DNA of 32,548 bases. Origin: a virus. Position 1 is the first letter of the stretch; each line of letters starts with the position of its first letter. The DNA is taken from IMG/VR virus record IMGVR_UViG_3300045999_001001, positions 1-32,548 of that record, one strand, 5' to 3'. Shown one piece after another: positions 3,952 through 32,548 of the stretch. The position numbers and the translations under genes are program-made. The notes under the pieces are model-generated. The model saw nothing but the letters and a program-made list of their open reading frames with translations, was not told the DNA's origin and searched no databases.

Positions 3952-4119
3952 ATGACAAAAGAACAGCTTATCAAATTGGCAGGGTCACAGAGTGAGCTTG
4001 CAAGGCTTTTGGGCATCAGCAAGCCTGCGGTCTGCCAGTGGAAGGCACAAATCCCTGAGTTGCGTTTGCGCCAGCTCAAGGACTTGAAGCCTGAGTGGTT
4101 TTTAACGGAGGAAACATGA
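3952..4119 (+). CDS. YdaS/Cro-like helix-turn-helix repressor
   Basis: 55 aa. A compact helix-turn-helix protein: GSQSELARLLGISKPAVCQW (residues 11-30) is a textbook Cro/YdaS motif, and the PELRLRQLKDLKP part supplies the final helices. Phage members bind operators between divergent early promoters and choose early or late transcription or lysogeny, which suits its position. An earlier ATG at 3944 reads into a stop after three codons, so 3952 is the start. No SD; the promoter at 3918-3945 predicts leaderless translation. No CI-type partner or integrase is visible here, so lysogeny cannot be judged. Confidence 0.85.
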   Translation: MTKEQLIKLAGSQSELARLLGISKPAVCQWKAQIPELRLRQLKDLKPEWFLTEET

Positions 4120-4265
4120 AAAAAGCACTGATTGCAATTTGGATTGCAGTATCAACCACAACAGTCTGGGCGGCTTGCTCAACGCACACTTACTATGCCA
4201 ATGGAAGGTATGTCACCTGCACCACCTGCTGTTATGGAAATAATTGCAACACAAGCTGTTATTGA
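4116..4265 (+). CDS. Secreted Cys-rich 49-aa peptide
   Basis: MKKALIAIWIAVSTTTVWA is a clear Sec signal peptide with a probable signal-peptidase cut after WAA or WA. The mature part is about 29 residues with six Cys (CSTH, CTTCCYGNNC, SCY) and several Tyr, suggesting disulfide bonding in the periplasm. The ATGA overlap with the repressor stop and GGAGG before the ATG show coupling. Similar signal-plus-Cys-rich short peptides occur in other phages without known roles. Being in the immediate-early operon, a surface or envelope effect early in infection is plausible. Confidence 0.7.
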   Translation: MKKALIAIWIAVSTTTVWAACSTHTYYANGRYVTCTTCCYGNNCNTSCY

Positions 4266-4280
4266 GTTAAAATAAAAAAA

Positions 4281-4392
4281 AGACGCTTGGCGGCGTTTCA
4301 CAGTGGGGCTACCCCTGATGTCTGCTGGTACTGTGCCAGTCCGCCAACACCCGCAAGGGTGAGACCTCAGGGTTAGCCCTTTTTTTTGGGCT
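4281..4392 (+). promoter_or_regulatory. Structured RNA leader upstream of the replication gene (three-way junction with long-range pairing)
   Basis: Base pairing read by eye. A long stem joins 4306-4323 to 4362-4379 (6 bp, 1x1 mismatch, 6 bp, 1x1 mismatch, 4 bp). It encloses hairpin CTGG/CCAG (4325-4328 with 4336-4339) and hairpin CACCC-GCAA-GGGTG (4348-4361). The joiner CCGCCAA (4341-4347) is perfectly complementary to TTGGCGG (4287-4293), which sits in the loop of an upstream hairpin (4281-4286 with 4293-4298). The 3' strand ends at a T8 tract, and AGCCC (4375-4379) can instead pair with GGGCT (4388-4392), 3 nt before the ATG. The order of pairings resembles nested double pseudoknots (HDV-like topology), but I see no ribozyme signature. 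A regulatory switch or attenuator is inferred. Confidence 0.6.
4306..4387 (+). terminator. Intrinsic-terminator-like stem plus T8 in tR1 position
   Basis: The 16-pair stem ending in GGGTTAGCCC runs straight into eight T residues, the shape of a rho-independent terminator although its loop carries two further hairpins. It separates the cro-like/secreted-peptide genes from the replication genes, as tR1 does in lambda, so early transcription could be gated here. Confidence 0.55.
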
Positions 4393-4395
4393 TTT

Positions 4396-5127
4396 ATGCA
4401 CTATTACAAACGAAACCTTGGCGACTATGCAAAGAAAGCTGGTCGGCTAACTATGCTTCAGCACGGTTCGTACACGCTTCTTATTGATTCGTGCTATGAC
4501 CGTGAAGTATTCCCCACATTAGAGCAGGCACTTGAATGGACTTGGGCATCGACAGAAGCAGAGGTCGAGGCTGTAAAGTTTGTTTTATCTAGGTTTTTCA
4601 CGCTGGATAAAGATGGCTGCTATGTGCAAGACAGAATCCTGCAAGAGTTGCTTGAATACCATGCTAAAGCAGACACGAATAAACGTATCGCCATTGAAAG
4701 AGAAACGAAGCGTAGGGAAAAAAGCACGAACCGTGAACAAAGCGTAAACGAACCTCCACCTAACCATAAACCAATAACCAATAACCATAAACCAATAAAA
4801 GAAAGAGCAACTAGCGTTGCTTGCCCTCCTGATGTAAACGAACAGGTTTGGCAAGATTGGCTGCAACTGCGGAAATCAAAAAAGGCATCAGTCACCGAAA
4901 CCGTGGTTAAGGGCGCACGGGCTGAAGCTGCCAAGTTGGGGTGGGAATTAGAAAAGTTTTTGGTTGAATGGTGTACCAGAGGTAGCCAAGGCTTAAAAGC
5001 TGAATGGATTACTGAAAAACAAACACAAAATGGCCTGACAAAAACAGGGCAGCGCAATGCCACTGTCCTGCAAGGCTTAACTCGTGGGTTACTTGGAGGG
5101 CAAAGCAATGTCCAATTACTCAAATAA
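4396..5127 (+). CDS. DUF1376 (YdaU-like) replication initiator, lambda-O analogue
   Basis: 243 aa. The N-terminus (MHYYKRNLGDYAKKAGRLT, then HGSYTLLIDSCYDRE and a helix to about residue 90) is the DUF1376 domain found in phage replication proteins of the O type. A polar linker (about 100-140) contains NHKPI twice, encoded by the heptad repeat array. The C-terminal part (QVWQDWLQLRKSKKASVT to WITEK, about 150-215) resembles the helical tail common to phage replisome-organiser proteins. There is no convincing SD before the ATG, which follows a T8 tract and a possible hairpin; translation may be controlled by the upstream RNA. Followed by the P-like gene with a 20-bp overlap. Confidence 0.8.
   Translation: MHYYKRNLGDYAKKAGRLTMLQHGSYTLLIDSCYDREVFPTLEQALEWTWASTEAEVEAVKFVLSRFFTLDKDGCYVQDRILQELLEYHAKADTNKRIAIERETKRREKSTNREQSVNEPPPNHKPITNNHKPIKERATSVACPPDVNEQVWQDWLQLRKSKKASVTETVVKGARAEAAKLGWELEKFLVEWCTRGSQGLKAEWITEKQTQNGLTKTGQRNATVLQGLTRGLLGGQSNVQLLK
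4762..4796 (+). repeat. Five tandem 7-bp iterons, candidate replication origin
   Basis: AACCATA, AACCAAT, AACCAAT, AACCATA, AACCAAT: five perfectly adjacent heptads inside the linker-coding part of the replication initiator gene. Lambda and relatives carry origin iterons in the same place within O. The unit is not a multiple of 3, so protein repetition alone does not explain the exact phase. Confidence 0.55.
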
Positions 5128-5479
5128 CGAATGCACTCAGGATGAAGGGCTGGACTACATTTTTGGCCGCATGAGTGCAATTTACGGGGCAGCATTTTTG
5201 CGGCACTGGGAGGGCGTTGACCTCGAGCTGGTGCGGCAAGAATGGCAAAAGCAGCTTGGCAACTTTTTGACTTATCGCCCAAGCATGGACTACGCCATTG
5301 ACCGTTGCCATGCTGATTACCCGCCAAGCGCAATTAAGTTCCGAGAATTCTGCAATGCAGGGCCAAACATTCCGCGAAACCAAGCCCAGATTGAATACAA
5401 CCCAAAGCCTGTTGACCCTGAAGTTATTGCCGAGGCCAAACGCAAACTTGCTGAGTTAAGGTCAAGATGGACGAATTAG
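5108..5479 (+). CDS. Lambda P-like replication protein (putative helicase loader)
   Basis: 123 aa. The pattern FGRMSAIYGAAFLRHW, then W-x-x-x-L in VRQEWQKQLGNF, then DYPPSAIKFREFCNAGP (about residues 18-80) is that of phage P-type proteins, which bring the host DnaB helicase to the initiator. The tail (residues 95-123) is charged and helical. Start 5108 has GGAGG 10 nt upstream; the in-frame ATG at 5084 lacks this. It follows the O-like gene directly, which strengthens the call. P-family sequences are divergent, so the assignment relies partly on position. Confidence 0.7.
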   Translation: MSNYSNNECTQDEGLDYIFGRMSAIYGAAFLRHWEGVDLELVRQEWQKQLGNFLTYRPSMDYAIDRCHADYPPSAIKFREFCNAGPNIPRNQAQIEYNPKPVDPEVIAEAKRKLAELRSRWTN

Positions 5480-28887: not shown

Positions 28888-31515
28888 ATGTCAGCACTAT
28901 CAATCAGCGTACCGTACCCAGTCTTTTCAGGGCAGGACGGGTTGCCTTTGGACAATGGTTATGTGTGGATTGGTACGGCAAATCTGTACCCCATAACCAA
29001 TCCGATTGCTGTTTATTTTGACGAGGCGTTGACTATTCAAGCAACCCAGCCGCTACGCACAATCAATGGCTTTATCTCTAACGCTGGCACACCAGCCAGG
29101 CTATATGTTAACGCCGCACAATACAGCATACAAGTGCTTGATAAAAATGGCAGTCTTGTTTACTCTTCGCAAAATGGTGCAGATGGCATTACCGCAAGCA
29201 CAATTTCTTTTATCGGGTTCAAAGGTCAAGTTGGAGATGTTTCTAATTTAGCAGGTGATGATGGAGCAGACTGGATTGGTTTTGAACCAAACAATTTTGG
29301 CTCTGGCGCTGTTGCCATGTCTGTGCAAGATAAGTTGCGTGAATCAGTATCTGTTACAGACTATGGAGCCTCGCCAAGCGCAACCGCTGCGGTTAATACT
29401 GTTGCGATTCAGTCGGCCTTAAATAATGCCGCTGGAAAGTTTCGTGTTTACATTCCAAGTGGTTTGTACGTGGTTAATGCGACTATTCGCATTCCATCCA
29501 ACACATATTTCTATGGCGATGGTGAGTCTTCAATCATTAAAATGGTTGGCACCGAAGGCCGAAACACAACGGTTGTATTGACTGGCAGTCGCGATGACAA
29601 GCGAGAGAACATCGTTATTGAAAGCATCCAGATTGACTTCAACCGAGATCGTTGGACTGTTGAGGGCGGCACTCAACTTGTGGACTCGCTCTATGGTGAG
29701 TTTCAAGATAACGATGAAAACGCTCTAAGCATTTGCTACAGCGAAAATGTTTTAATTTCTAACGTCAGTTGCATTGACGCTTACAAGCACAACTTTGATG
29801 TGCTTGCACCAAAATACGTATCTAATACATCTGGCACTGAGTACGATCCGCAGCCATCGCGCTTTGTTCGAATTGAGAACTGCTACGCCTATGGCGCAGG
29901 CGATGATAACTTCACCACACACTTTTCTTCAGATATTTGGGTTGTTGATTGCCGTTCCGAAAACCCATCTGGCGTAAGGGTTCCATCGAACTCCAACTGC
30001 TTTGAAGTTGACGATGGCTCAAGAAACGTCATTTTGTCTAATGTTGTCGGTATTGGTGGTGCAACTGGTATTCAGATTAAGGGCCATGACTATGCGCCTG
30101 CGCCTTATAACGTAATTGTCAACGGAGCACGCATTGCTAACTGTGCTTCAGGTTTAGACATTCGACATTTTGGTTTTTACAGCGGAAATAGCCCAACAGC
30201 AAGAAACGTCAGTGTTTCTGATGTAATGATTGTTGCCCCAAAAGCATGGACGGCATTCAATGGCAATGTGATTGCTGCCGATTATGGCGTTCAAATCACA
30301 TCCTACGAAAATGTCAACCTAACAAACATCACTATAAATGATGGCAGTGAAGACTTGGGTGGTATTTACGAAGCTGGAACAACCTTGACCGAGGCTGTTG
30401 TGCGTCTGTACAACGGCGCAAGAAACGTCTTAATTCAAAATCTTTCAATCTACGGCTTTGATAGTGCAACGTATGGTTTGTGGATAACTAGCACATTTCT
30501 TGGAAAAGCAACCATTGACGGCTTTACCTATACCGCAAACACGACGGGTATTGAGTATCCTGTTCGTTTTCAAGACAGCGGCAGCACATACACAGCTTTT
30601 CTTGACAAGTATCAAATCACGGGCAGCAGGGCTGAGTCAACAGCCATCTACACAACAAACCCCAATGTTAATGTTGGCACTGGTTACATTACTGGCTACG
30701 GCATACCTGTTTATCCGGGAACAAAAGGCCTTGAGTTTTCTCGGGAGGCTATTTCTTCTGGTGATGGCGCAGTTGTGCCACAAGAAATTTTGTCGTTTAC
30801 TTGGGTAGAAAGACCTTCACCTGCTATCGACTTGGGCATCGGTGAAGGTTTAAAAATAAGCTGGAAAGCACAGCTTTTTAATGACACGTCTGCAAAAGAG
30901 TTTGGTTACGTTGGTTTTGAGAAAGCATCTAGCACTGACAACAGAATTTCTAATTTTGTTGTTGGCAACTCGGCAGATGGTGGAACAACAGCCCCAAGCG
31001 ATTATTTCGTGGTGGAGGCTGCTGGACCAACTCGACCCGGCACAGATAACAACAAGAGCTTGGGCACTGCCAGCTTTCGTTGGTCGGTAGTGTTTGCCGG
31101 TAACGGAACAATCAACACGTCAGATGCCCGTGAAAAGCAGCAAATCCGCGAATTATCGGATGTTGAGCGAGCTGTAGCGTTGCGTTGCAAACAATTGATT
31201 AGAGCTTTTAAGTTCAATGATGCAGTTGAAGAAAAAGGCGATGGGGCAAGAACTCATTTTGGAGTTATCGCTCAAGAGGTGAAATCTGCATTTGAGCAAG
31301 AAGGCTTAGACCCATTCGCCTACGGCATTTTGTGCCTTGACGCTTGGGATCAGCAATCTGAAGCAGTCACGAAAAAAATCATCACCATTGATGAAAATGA
31401 AAAAGAAACCATTGAACATCAGTTGACTGATGAAATCAAAATTGTGCGAGAAGCTGGAGAGCGATACGGGATTCGCTACGAGCAACTTTTGATATTCATT
31501 ATTTCGGCAATGTAA
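28888..31515 (+). CDS. Tailspike: P22-like head-binding domain, beta-helix, S74 chaperone
   Basis: 875 aa. The N-terminus (ISVPYPVFSGQDGLPLDNGYVW, then YFDEALTIQATQPLRTINGF) is the head-binding domain of P22-type tailspikes. VTDYGASPSATAAVNTVAIQ starts a right-handed beta-helix (about 155-640) that binds and probably cleaves surface polysaccharide. The C-terminus holds a peptidase-S74 intramolecular chaperone: TSDAREK (Ser745 and Lys750 as the self-cleavage dyad), then FGVIAQEV. After folding and trimerisation this part should be cut off. Because receptor specificity lies in the beta-helix, this gene decides host range. GGGAG precedes the ATG. Confidence 0.92.
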   Translation: MSALSISVPYPVFSGQDGLPLDNGYVWIGTANLYPITNPIAVYFDEALTIQATQPLRTINGFISNAGTPARLYVNAAQYSIQVLDKNGSLVYSSQNGADGITASTISFIGFKGQVGDVSNLAGDDGADWIGFEPNNFGSGAVAMSVQDKLRESVSVTDYGASPSATAAVNTVAIQSALNNAAGKFRVYIPSGLYVVNATIRIPSNTYFYGDGESSIIKMVGTEGRNTTVVLTGSRDDKRENIVIESIQIDFNRDRWTVEGGTQLVDSLYGEFQDNDENALSICYSENVLISNVSCIDAYKHNFDVLAPKYVSNTSGTEYDPQPSRFVRIENCYAYGAGDDNFTTHFSSDIWVVDCRSENPSGVRVPSNSNCFEVDDGSRNVILSNVVGIGGATGIQIKGHDYAPAPYNVIVNGARIANCASGLDIRHFGFYSGNSPTARNVSVSDVMIVAPKAWTAFNGNVIAADYGVQITSYENVNLTNITINDGSEDLGGIYEAGTTLTEAVVRLYNGARNVLIQNLSIYGFDSATYGLWITSTFLGKATIDGFTYTANTTGIEYPVRFQDSGSTYTAFLDKYQITGSRAESTAIYTTNPNVNVGTGYITGYGIPVYPGTKGLEFSREAISSGDGAVVPQEILSFTWVERPSPAIDLGIGEGLKISWKAQLFNDTSAKEFGYVGFEKASSTDNRISNFVVGNSADGGTTAPSDYFVVEAAGPTRPGTDNNKSLGTASFRWSVVFAGNGTINTSDAREKQQIRELSDVERAVALRCKQLIRAFKFNDAVEEKGDGARTHFGVIAQEVKSAFEQEGLDPFAYGILCLDAWDQQSEAVTKKIITIDENEKETIEHQLTDEIKIVREAGERYGIRYEQLLIFIISAM

Positions 31516-31651: not shown

Positions 31652-32005
31652 ATGGCAACTAATTCACAAATTGCATTTGCCCCACTTGGCAATACGGTTG
31701 TTGTTGCTGCTGCATCAAGTGCCCCTACAGGCGTTCAGGCGCTGGTTAATGGCAGACTGGATGCACAGGGTACTGGACAATACCGAATCATAAATTCAAG
31801 CGCAAATCTAGTGTTTTTGGGTGTAGGTCCAACAGCAGCGATTGCTACAGCCAACGCAGTGGCTCCGGTCGCTGGCACACCAACGGATGCGATTGTGCTT
31901 CTGCCTAATTCTGTGCATATTTTGCGCTTTGGGCGTGATTCATTCTTTAGTGGCTTGGCATCATCATCGTCTACTGTCTACATCGTGCAGGGTGAGGGCA
32001 TCTGA
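31652..32005 (+). CDS. Hypothetical beta-rich virion-type protein
   Basis: 117 aa. NSQIAFAPLGNTVVVAAASS, GTGQYRIINSSANLVFLGVG and SSSSTVYIVQGEGI suggest a small beta-sandwich protein of the kind found beside tail or capsid genes. AAGGA lies 8 nt upstream of the ATG at 31652; an earlier in-frame ATG at 31625 lies inside the preceding ORF. Late location between tailspike and lysis genes. Function unknown. Confidence 0.68.
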   Translation: MATNSQIAFAPLGNTVVVAAASSAPTGVQALVNGRLDAQGTGQYRIINSSANLVFLGVGPTAAIATANAVAPVAGTPTDAIVLLPNSVHILRFGRDSFFSGLASSSSTVYIVQGEGI

Positions 32006-32202
32006 TGGCTGGGGAAACCGACACACGGCTGGCGGTACATGAGGCGGTTTGCGCTGAAAGATACGCCGCTATCGAAAAGTCGTTTGTCTCGGGTTCACAA
32101 CGCATGACCCGCATTGAGTATTTGCTTTATGTGGTGATTGCGGCTGTGTTGCTGGGGCCAGGCTTCGCTGGTGAGTTGGTCAAAAAAATACTGGGGCTGT
32201 AA
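32005..32202 (+). CDS. One-TM small protein, holin/XhlA-like candidate
   Basis: 65 aa. A polar helical N-terminus (ETDTRLAVHEAVCAERYAAI), then a single membrane span at about residues 40-58 (LLYVVIAAVLLGPGFAGEL) and a short basic tail (KKILGL). The arrangement (N-terminal coil, one TM, charged end) is shared by XhlA-like and other lysis proteins. Position in the late region and the presence of an endolysin at the other end of the window support a holin-like role, not proven. ATGA link to the preceding gene. Confidence 0.6.
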   Translation: MAGETDTRLAVHEAVCAERYAAIEKSFVSGSQRMTRIEYLLYVVIAAVLLGPGFAGELVKKILGL

Positions 32203-32548
32203 ATTGACCCGATCAGCATTTGTCTGCTTGCCGCAGGACTTGTTAAGCAAATACAAGCTGGGTGTGAGCTGTACAAACAGGCAAAAGAATCTTTTGTTGA
32301 GATTAAGCAGACTGCTGATGAGGTTATTGCCATTGGCAAAGAGATGCATGGATTTTGGGGTCAATTACTTGCGTTTTTCAAACCCAAGCCCCAAACGTCA
32401 AAGCCTGTGGCAAAAAAGAAGTCAACCTATGTCGCAGTTGACGAGACGCAAGTCAAAATCGACATTGTTAAAAATCTGACGGAGTTTTTCAGACTGCAAG
32501 AGCAGTTGGCGGCACACATCAGAGAAGAGGAAGAGAAAAGCCTGACAG
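32203..32548 (+). CDS. Phage helical protein, ATT start, cut by the right edge
   Basis: Open frame of 115 codons plus one base. It reads DPISICLLAAGLVKQIQAGC, then ELYKQAKESFVEIKQTADEV, a Lys/Pro-rich middle, and VKNLTEFFRLQEQLAAHIRE; I recall this protein type from other phages, where it normally starts MDP. Here the M position is ATT directly after the preceding TAA, with GGGG 6 nt upstream. Either ATT is used, a sequencing error hides an ATG, or translation starts internally at 32347 (ATG CAT GGA). The end is outside the window. Role unknown. Confidence 0.65.
   Translation, partial: MDPISICLLAAGLVKQIQAGCELYKQAKESFVEIKQTADEVIAIGKEMHGFWGQLLAFFKPKPQTSKPVAKKKSTYVAVDETQVKIDIVKNLTEFFRLQEQLAAHIREEEEKSLT

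Follow-up and report, generated by a model that had tools for sequence, protein, structure and literature searches.

The window analysed in this study is the whole of IMG/VR virus record IMGVR_UViG_3300045999_001001, which is 32,548 bases long. The features of concern lie at its 3′ end, all on the plus strand. An ORF of 65 amino acids with one hydrophobic stretch (32005-32202) ends in a TAA at 32200-32202 that directly adjoins an ATT at 32203-32205, and a GGGG at 32193-32196, likely a Shine-Dalgarno element, stands where relatives have AGGAG or AAGGA. The sequence thus bears out this part of the original prediction. The ATT is the inferred start codon of a frame-0 gene that stays open to the end of the record, by which it is truncated (32203-32548). 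The first in-frame ATG of this gene is at 32344 (codon 48), and the TAA directly before the ATT is in frame, which leaves no alternative in-frame start upstream. A TTG at 32204-32206 overlaps the ATT in frame +1 and is the putative start of a second, Leu/Arg-rich frame of 91 codons plus a stop (32204-32479), a candidate overlapping gene. Elsewhere in the window, 28888-31515 encodes a long tail-fibre-like protein, the end of which, we presume, resembles a self-cleaving intramolecular chaperone domain.

In relatives, the full-length frame-0 protein is mostly approximately 228-235 amino acids long and has a hydrophobic C-terminal segment. The 229-residue protein from one related locus (L001) was predicted by AlphaFold2 to be all-helical, with a mean pLDDT of 77 and a pTM of 0.57. 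Neither the frame-0 nor the +1 protein gave a useful match in Pfam or PHROG, and the upstream 65-residue ORF had no Pfam match and PHROG matches at E 0.026 or worse. Comparison of the frame-0 protein with PDB sequences gave weak matches (best E 0.038), and its model matched no PDB fold at E 0.001 or better. A BFVD search with the same model returned six matches at or below 0.001, all of which are uncharacterised phage proteins.

The genes downstream in L001 are, in order, a small membrane protein, an ORF of unknown function matching phrog_25359, an Rz spanin (4340-4807), a Rz1-like spanin ORF embedded within it in a different frame (4518-4793), and an M15-type endolysin (4804-5232). The ATT-start gene therefore stands at the head of a lysis cassette, and this position is the one pointer to a possible role in lysis. 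The only bacterial locus found comes from the metagenome-assembled genome of a beta-proteobacterium, and it does not fix the host of the window phage.

Start codons and ribosome-binding sites among relatives

The first codon was compared in several sets of relatives. Among the best 80 of at least 581 relatives of the window gene, it is ATT in 62 and GTG in 18. A pattern scan, combined with the loci already collected, gave at least 122 distinct sites (ATT 104, GTG 18), with no ATG or TTG among the matches listed. Of 41 distant loci reached via GenBank record MW202484, 39 could be counted (GTG 31, ATT 7, ATA 1); the other two, L201 and L230, lack the 5′ end. These sets were pooled with the results of two more relative queries (best 80 of 505 and best 80 of 119), after which we dropped duplicates, hits without the first residues or without 40 upstream bases, coding stretches below 450 bases, and sequences with no Asp-Pro near the start. 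The remaining 289 rows have ATT (146), GTG (89), ATG (39), GTG one codon earlier (12), and ATC, ATA and TTG (one each).

Each pooled row was assigned to the clade of its best-matching query, with three queries taken together as the far clades. In the near clade, to which the window belongs, all 137 rows begin with ATT (117) or GTG (20). The L240 clade (45 rows) has ATT in 22, GTG in 22 and ATC in one, and the far clades (36 rows) have GTG in 31, ATT in four and ATA in one. The L083 clade comprises 30 rows; the L269 clade comprises 41 and contains all 39 ATG rows, so that ATG as the first codon is confined to one distant sub-branch of the pooled rows. In a FastTree tree, the start codon changed at least 34 times, and changes between ATG and non-ATG occurred only twice. 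Other genes of the same loci served as a control: ATG is the start codon of the next gene in 145 of 145 distinct sites, of Rz in 116 of 125, and of the endolysin in 89 of 108. Non-ATG initiation is therefore a trait of the ATT-start gene rather than of these phages. The same control was unusable with the 4017-4343 query, the first Met not being the aligned start in most relatives.

The ATT had been proposed to be either a real low-level start or a sequencing error for ATG. The alignment of homologues at the first codon gives ATT or GTG far beyond chance and supports the former, while none of the 218 non-redundant near, L240 and far rows (ATT 143, GTG 73, ATC 1, ATA 1) has ATG there. The conserved N-terminus that had been suspected after the ATT also holds up, in that residues 2-30 are conserved among relatives with free third positions. 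On these comparative grounds, we regard the ATT start of the window gene as real and conserved and a sequencing error at this codon as excluded; an internal start for the frame-0 gene is very unlikely.

Several individual sequences deserve mention. In L199 (2495-2506), an in-frame ATG lies directly before the ATT; it is the sole sequence seen with this arrangement, and its +1 frame closes after six codons. The ATA of L209 and the ATC of L336, both at 2501-2503, have no overlapping +1 start, and the +1 frame is closed in both. Two GenBank proteins are annotated too short: the annotated CDS starts 21 bases downstream of the conserved GTG in MW202484 (L082, 4001-4726) and 27 bases downstream of it in MW202462 (L083, 2498-3190).

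In the near clade, 77% of 79 distinct ATT contexts have a Shine-Dalgarno score of at least 10, compared with 40% of shuffles, and 56 of the 61 high-scoring contexts have an aligned spacing of 8-9. No Shine-Dalgarno signal was detected in near GTG contexts (n = 13; 8% versus 56% of shuffles) or far GTG contexts (n = 28; 14% versus 31%), and the L240 ATT contexts (n = 19) showed no enrichment (21% versus 35%). Near ATT genes thus combine a strong site with a very weak codon, whereas near and far GTG genes have a better codon behind a poor site. In the window itself, the Shine-Dalgarno-like element is only GGGG. Among 1,157 control ATG ORFs in the same loci, 507 score at least 12, with a modal spacing of 9. 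A spacing of 8-9 to the ATT corresponds to 9-10 to the TTG one base on, close to the control mode; therefore, both codons fit the ribosome-site distance.

The overlapping start and the open +1 frame

The original prediction overlooked that the ATT overlaps a +1 TTG whose frame is itself selected to stay open. Together with the conserved Asp codon (GAY), ATT reads A-TTG-AY, which places a TTG one base downstream in frame +1; because the Asp codon makes this TTG unavoidable, it does not count as evidence in itself. The GTG relatives mostly read AT-GTG, which places an ATG in the same +1 frame. This form is found in 32 of 32 far and 13 of 20 near GTG rows (45 of 52 together), and at 19 of 19 distinct GTG sites in the L240 query set. 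Two start codons therefore overlap in different frames at ribosome-site distance, which is the arrangement of ambiguous two-frame start sites. The window starts lie in frames 0 and +1 and not in one frame, as they would in a dual start of the lambda S holin type.

The overlapping start and the open frame go together in the pooled rows. In every one of the 164 rows with at least 75 open +1 codons, a frame +1 ATG, GTG or TTG lies at position +1, -2 or -5, and the 57 rows that lack such a codon are all closed in +1; the double start is present with a closed +1 frame in 68 rows, and as the rows are related by descent, the Fisher value of this table is not a probability. For 28 of the 117 near ATT rows, the TTG is the only +1 start available, because a +1 stop occurs within the 30 bases upstream. 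Another NTG lies between the upstream stop and the TTG in four of the others, and 85 have no stop within 30 bases. Avoidance of stops begins by codon 4, which places the entry into frame +1 at the start codon or close to it.

The +1 frame is open for at least 80 codons in 102 of 104 near ATT rows. Stops were counted against synonymous shuffles in coding stretches of at least 600 bases. In the first 90 codons, 115 near sequences have 0.18 +1 stops per sequence where 3.00 are expected, and 37 far sequences have 0.76 where 2.93 are expected. A segment analysis limited this depletion to codons 0-90 and to frame +1. Among 17 other genes of the window, the longest open run reached p < 0.05 in none of 34 frame tests. 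The avoidance ends sharply at codon 91-92: the usage of stop-making codons is 1.4% in 16 columns up to codon 90 (20% expected) and 44% in 13 columns beyond codon 92 (29% expected; p = 1.5e-4 against the earlier columns, with column 92 excluded). Codon choice within codons 2-91 depends on the following base, xTA being used in 28 of 1936 cases before A or G versus 127 of 687 before C or T, and xTG in 0 of 505 cases before A versus 272 of 1337 otherwise.

The same pattern was obtained when changes were counted on a tree of 130 near sequences, in which a stop is involved in 17 of the 188 third-position changes within codons 2-91 and in 91 of the 188 within codons 92-185 (Fisher 7e-18). The signal in the far clades is weaker (11/52 versus 25/72), and no tree-count signal was seen in L240 (15/35 versus 39/83), L083 (43/81 versus 33/58) or L269 (32/80 versus 20/45). 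Cell counts agree with the tree counts, apart from a somewhat low use of xTG before A in L269 (20/189 versus 137/369 otherwise) and L240 (21/101 versus 150/417) as well. These results indicate that the +1 frame in the window's clade is kept stop-free by selection for approximately 91 codons. There is no support for an antisense gene behind the shortage of +1 stops, as antisense frame 0 is only mildly low in the near clade (1.62 versus 2.54) and the other two antisense frames are not. General avoidance of stop trinucleotides is ruled out, frame +2 not being depleted in the same codons.

The amino acid sequence of the predicted +1 peptide appears barely constrained, and its length varies among relatives. 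It has no family match in Pfam or PHROG. Fourfold third-position diversity is 0.494 in codons 2-91 and 0.613 further on (p = 0.07). The Leu content in the near clade is 21.0 per 85 codons versus 14.8 in shuffles that also avoid stops. NCN codons ending in T encode Leu in frame +1; within codons 2-91 they are enriched in the near (0.50 versus 0.32) and far (0.31 versus 0.11) clades and show no enrichment in L240 (0.17 versus 0.21) or L083 (0.29 versus 0.39); the enrichment is thus found only in clades with an open +1 frame.

A proposed two-frame start site and its alternatives

We propose, with moderate confidence and on the basis of sequence comparison, that the gene heading the lysis cassette truly begins at the ATT, a weak start, and that this codon belongs to an overlapping double start (AUUG or AUGUG), which would open two frames from one site. 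One ribosome-binding site would serve the AUU for frame 0, yielding the conserved, approximately 229-residue helical protein with a hydrophobic C-terminus, and also the UUG one base downstream for frame +1, yielding a Leu/Arg-rich peptide of approximately 91 codons. The AUGUG relatives would achieve the same effect, with AUG entering frame +1 and GUG entering frame 0. Both frames are presumably translated, and the dose of frame 0 may be kept low both by competition with the out-of-frame start and by its own near-cognate start, which is presumably sensitive to IF3. Before the conserved GAY, an ATG or TTG in frame 0 could not overlap a +1 start in this manner, and this partly accounts for the restriction to ATT and GTG of clades whose +1 frame is open. 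In L240, ATT and ATGTG persist despite early closure of the +1 frame, so the retention of ATT there does not depend on a long +1 frame. Weak initiation is therefore probably selected in its own right, and we abandoned the +1 ORF as the lone reason for the missing ATG on this evidence. Taken together, the observations are accounted for most economically by a weak two-frame start site whose second frame is under selection in the window's clade.

Another possible but less probable explanation is that ATT, like ATC, ATA or GTG under an AUG decoy, is a conserved weak start for a low frame-0 level, with the out-of-frame start serving purely as a decoy. The avoidance of +1 stops in some clades would then reflect heavy ribosome traffic in that frame, which might for instance keep the messenger covered, and not the function of a peptide. 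The L240 rows with a closed +1 frame, the ATC of L336 and ATA of L209 with no overlapping +1 start, and the slight constraint on the +1 peptide are all consistent with this, as is E. coli narQ, where a decoy start lowers the GUG frame according to the excerpted text of PMC9841429. The sharp end of stop avoidance at codon 91-92 and the restriction of T-ending NCN enrichment to open-frame clades argue against it. It might also be that ribosomes initiate solely on the +1 NTG and immediately slip one base backwards, with AUU not acting as an initiator. The distance of one base between UUG and AUU, both at a normal Shine-Dalgarno distance, would allow this, but we consider it improbable: a +1 start is missing from L209 (ATA, with an immediate +1 TAG) and L336, the +1 frame of the ATT loci L243 and L265 closes after three codons, and the AUG in AUGUG would have no good codon to slip back to. 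These four loci disfavour slippage from frame +1 as the sole route to frame 0.

A sequencing error for ATG or an internal start, such as the ATG at 32344, is the least probable of these explanations and very improbable. The presence of that next in-frame ATG and the downstream annotation of MW202484 speak for it. Against it, 117 of the 137 near rows, drawn from many contigs, have ATT and not one has ATG, and residues 2-30 are strongly conserved in the protein, with free third positions; codon 48 is Met in only some relatives. Stop readthrough from the upstream gene is ruled out, as the upstream genes and their frames differ among relatives.

The proposed weak two-frame start site can be compared with several known systems. 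The suggested analogy with infC, the E. coli gene encoding IF3, holds for the codon type: infC has an AUU start with a Shine-Dalgarno element, conserved in its family, and IF3 represses non-canonical starts, as described in the excerpted text of PMC5472188. It does not extend further, as infC encodes an autoregulated IF3, whereas the window gene encodes a phage membrane-type protein, its ATT alternates with GTG, and, unlike that of infC, it overlaps a +1 TTG with a conserved open frame. A closer parallel is given by the AUGUG and GUGUG sites of E. coli (pqiA, tamA and narQ), where overlapping starts at one ribosome site can initiate both frames (Kohl et al. 2022, PMC9841429, in excerpt); the GTG relatives here are exactly AUGUG. 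The window differs in its AUUG form with near-cognate AUU, which is absent from the excerpted text of that paper, and the second frames named there are 15 and 10 amino acids long, whereas the frame described here has approximately 91 codons with stop avoidance in many phages. The lambda S dual-start holin/antiholin also has two very close starts in a phage lysis region (PMC9841429, in excerpt), but these are in one frame, two residues apart. Rz/Rz1 spanins, which are present downstream in L001, likewise overlap in different frames within the lysis cassette, but Rz1 starts inside Rz, whereas the two frames of the window start at the same place. A search of open-licence papers (titles and abstract openings) for AUU/ATT phage starts or overlapping phage starts found no such phage gene.

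More tentatively, AUUG may be a conserved two-frame switch, in which one site yields two unrelated proteins in a ratio set by initiation fidelity, AUU being IF3-sensitive and UUG less so. The phage would thereby couple the translation state of the host to the dose of two lysis-region proteins, and a Leu/Arg-rich gene of approximately 91 codons would be unannotated across many phages. Gene finders generally allow just ATG, GTG and TTG; they would cut or miss the ATT gene and be blind to the second frame. Should both frames be produced, this locus would be a conserved case of a near-cognate start kept for its overlap with another start, and would link rare start codons to overlapping genes.
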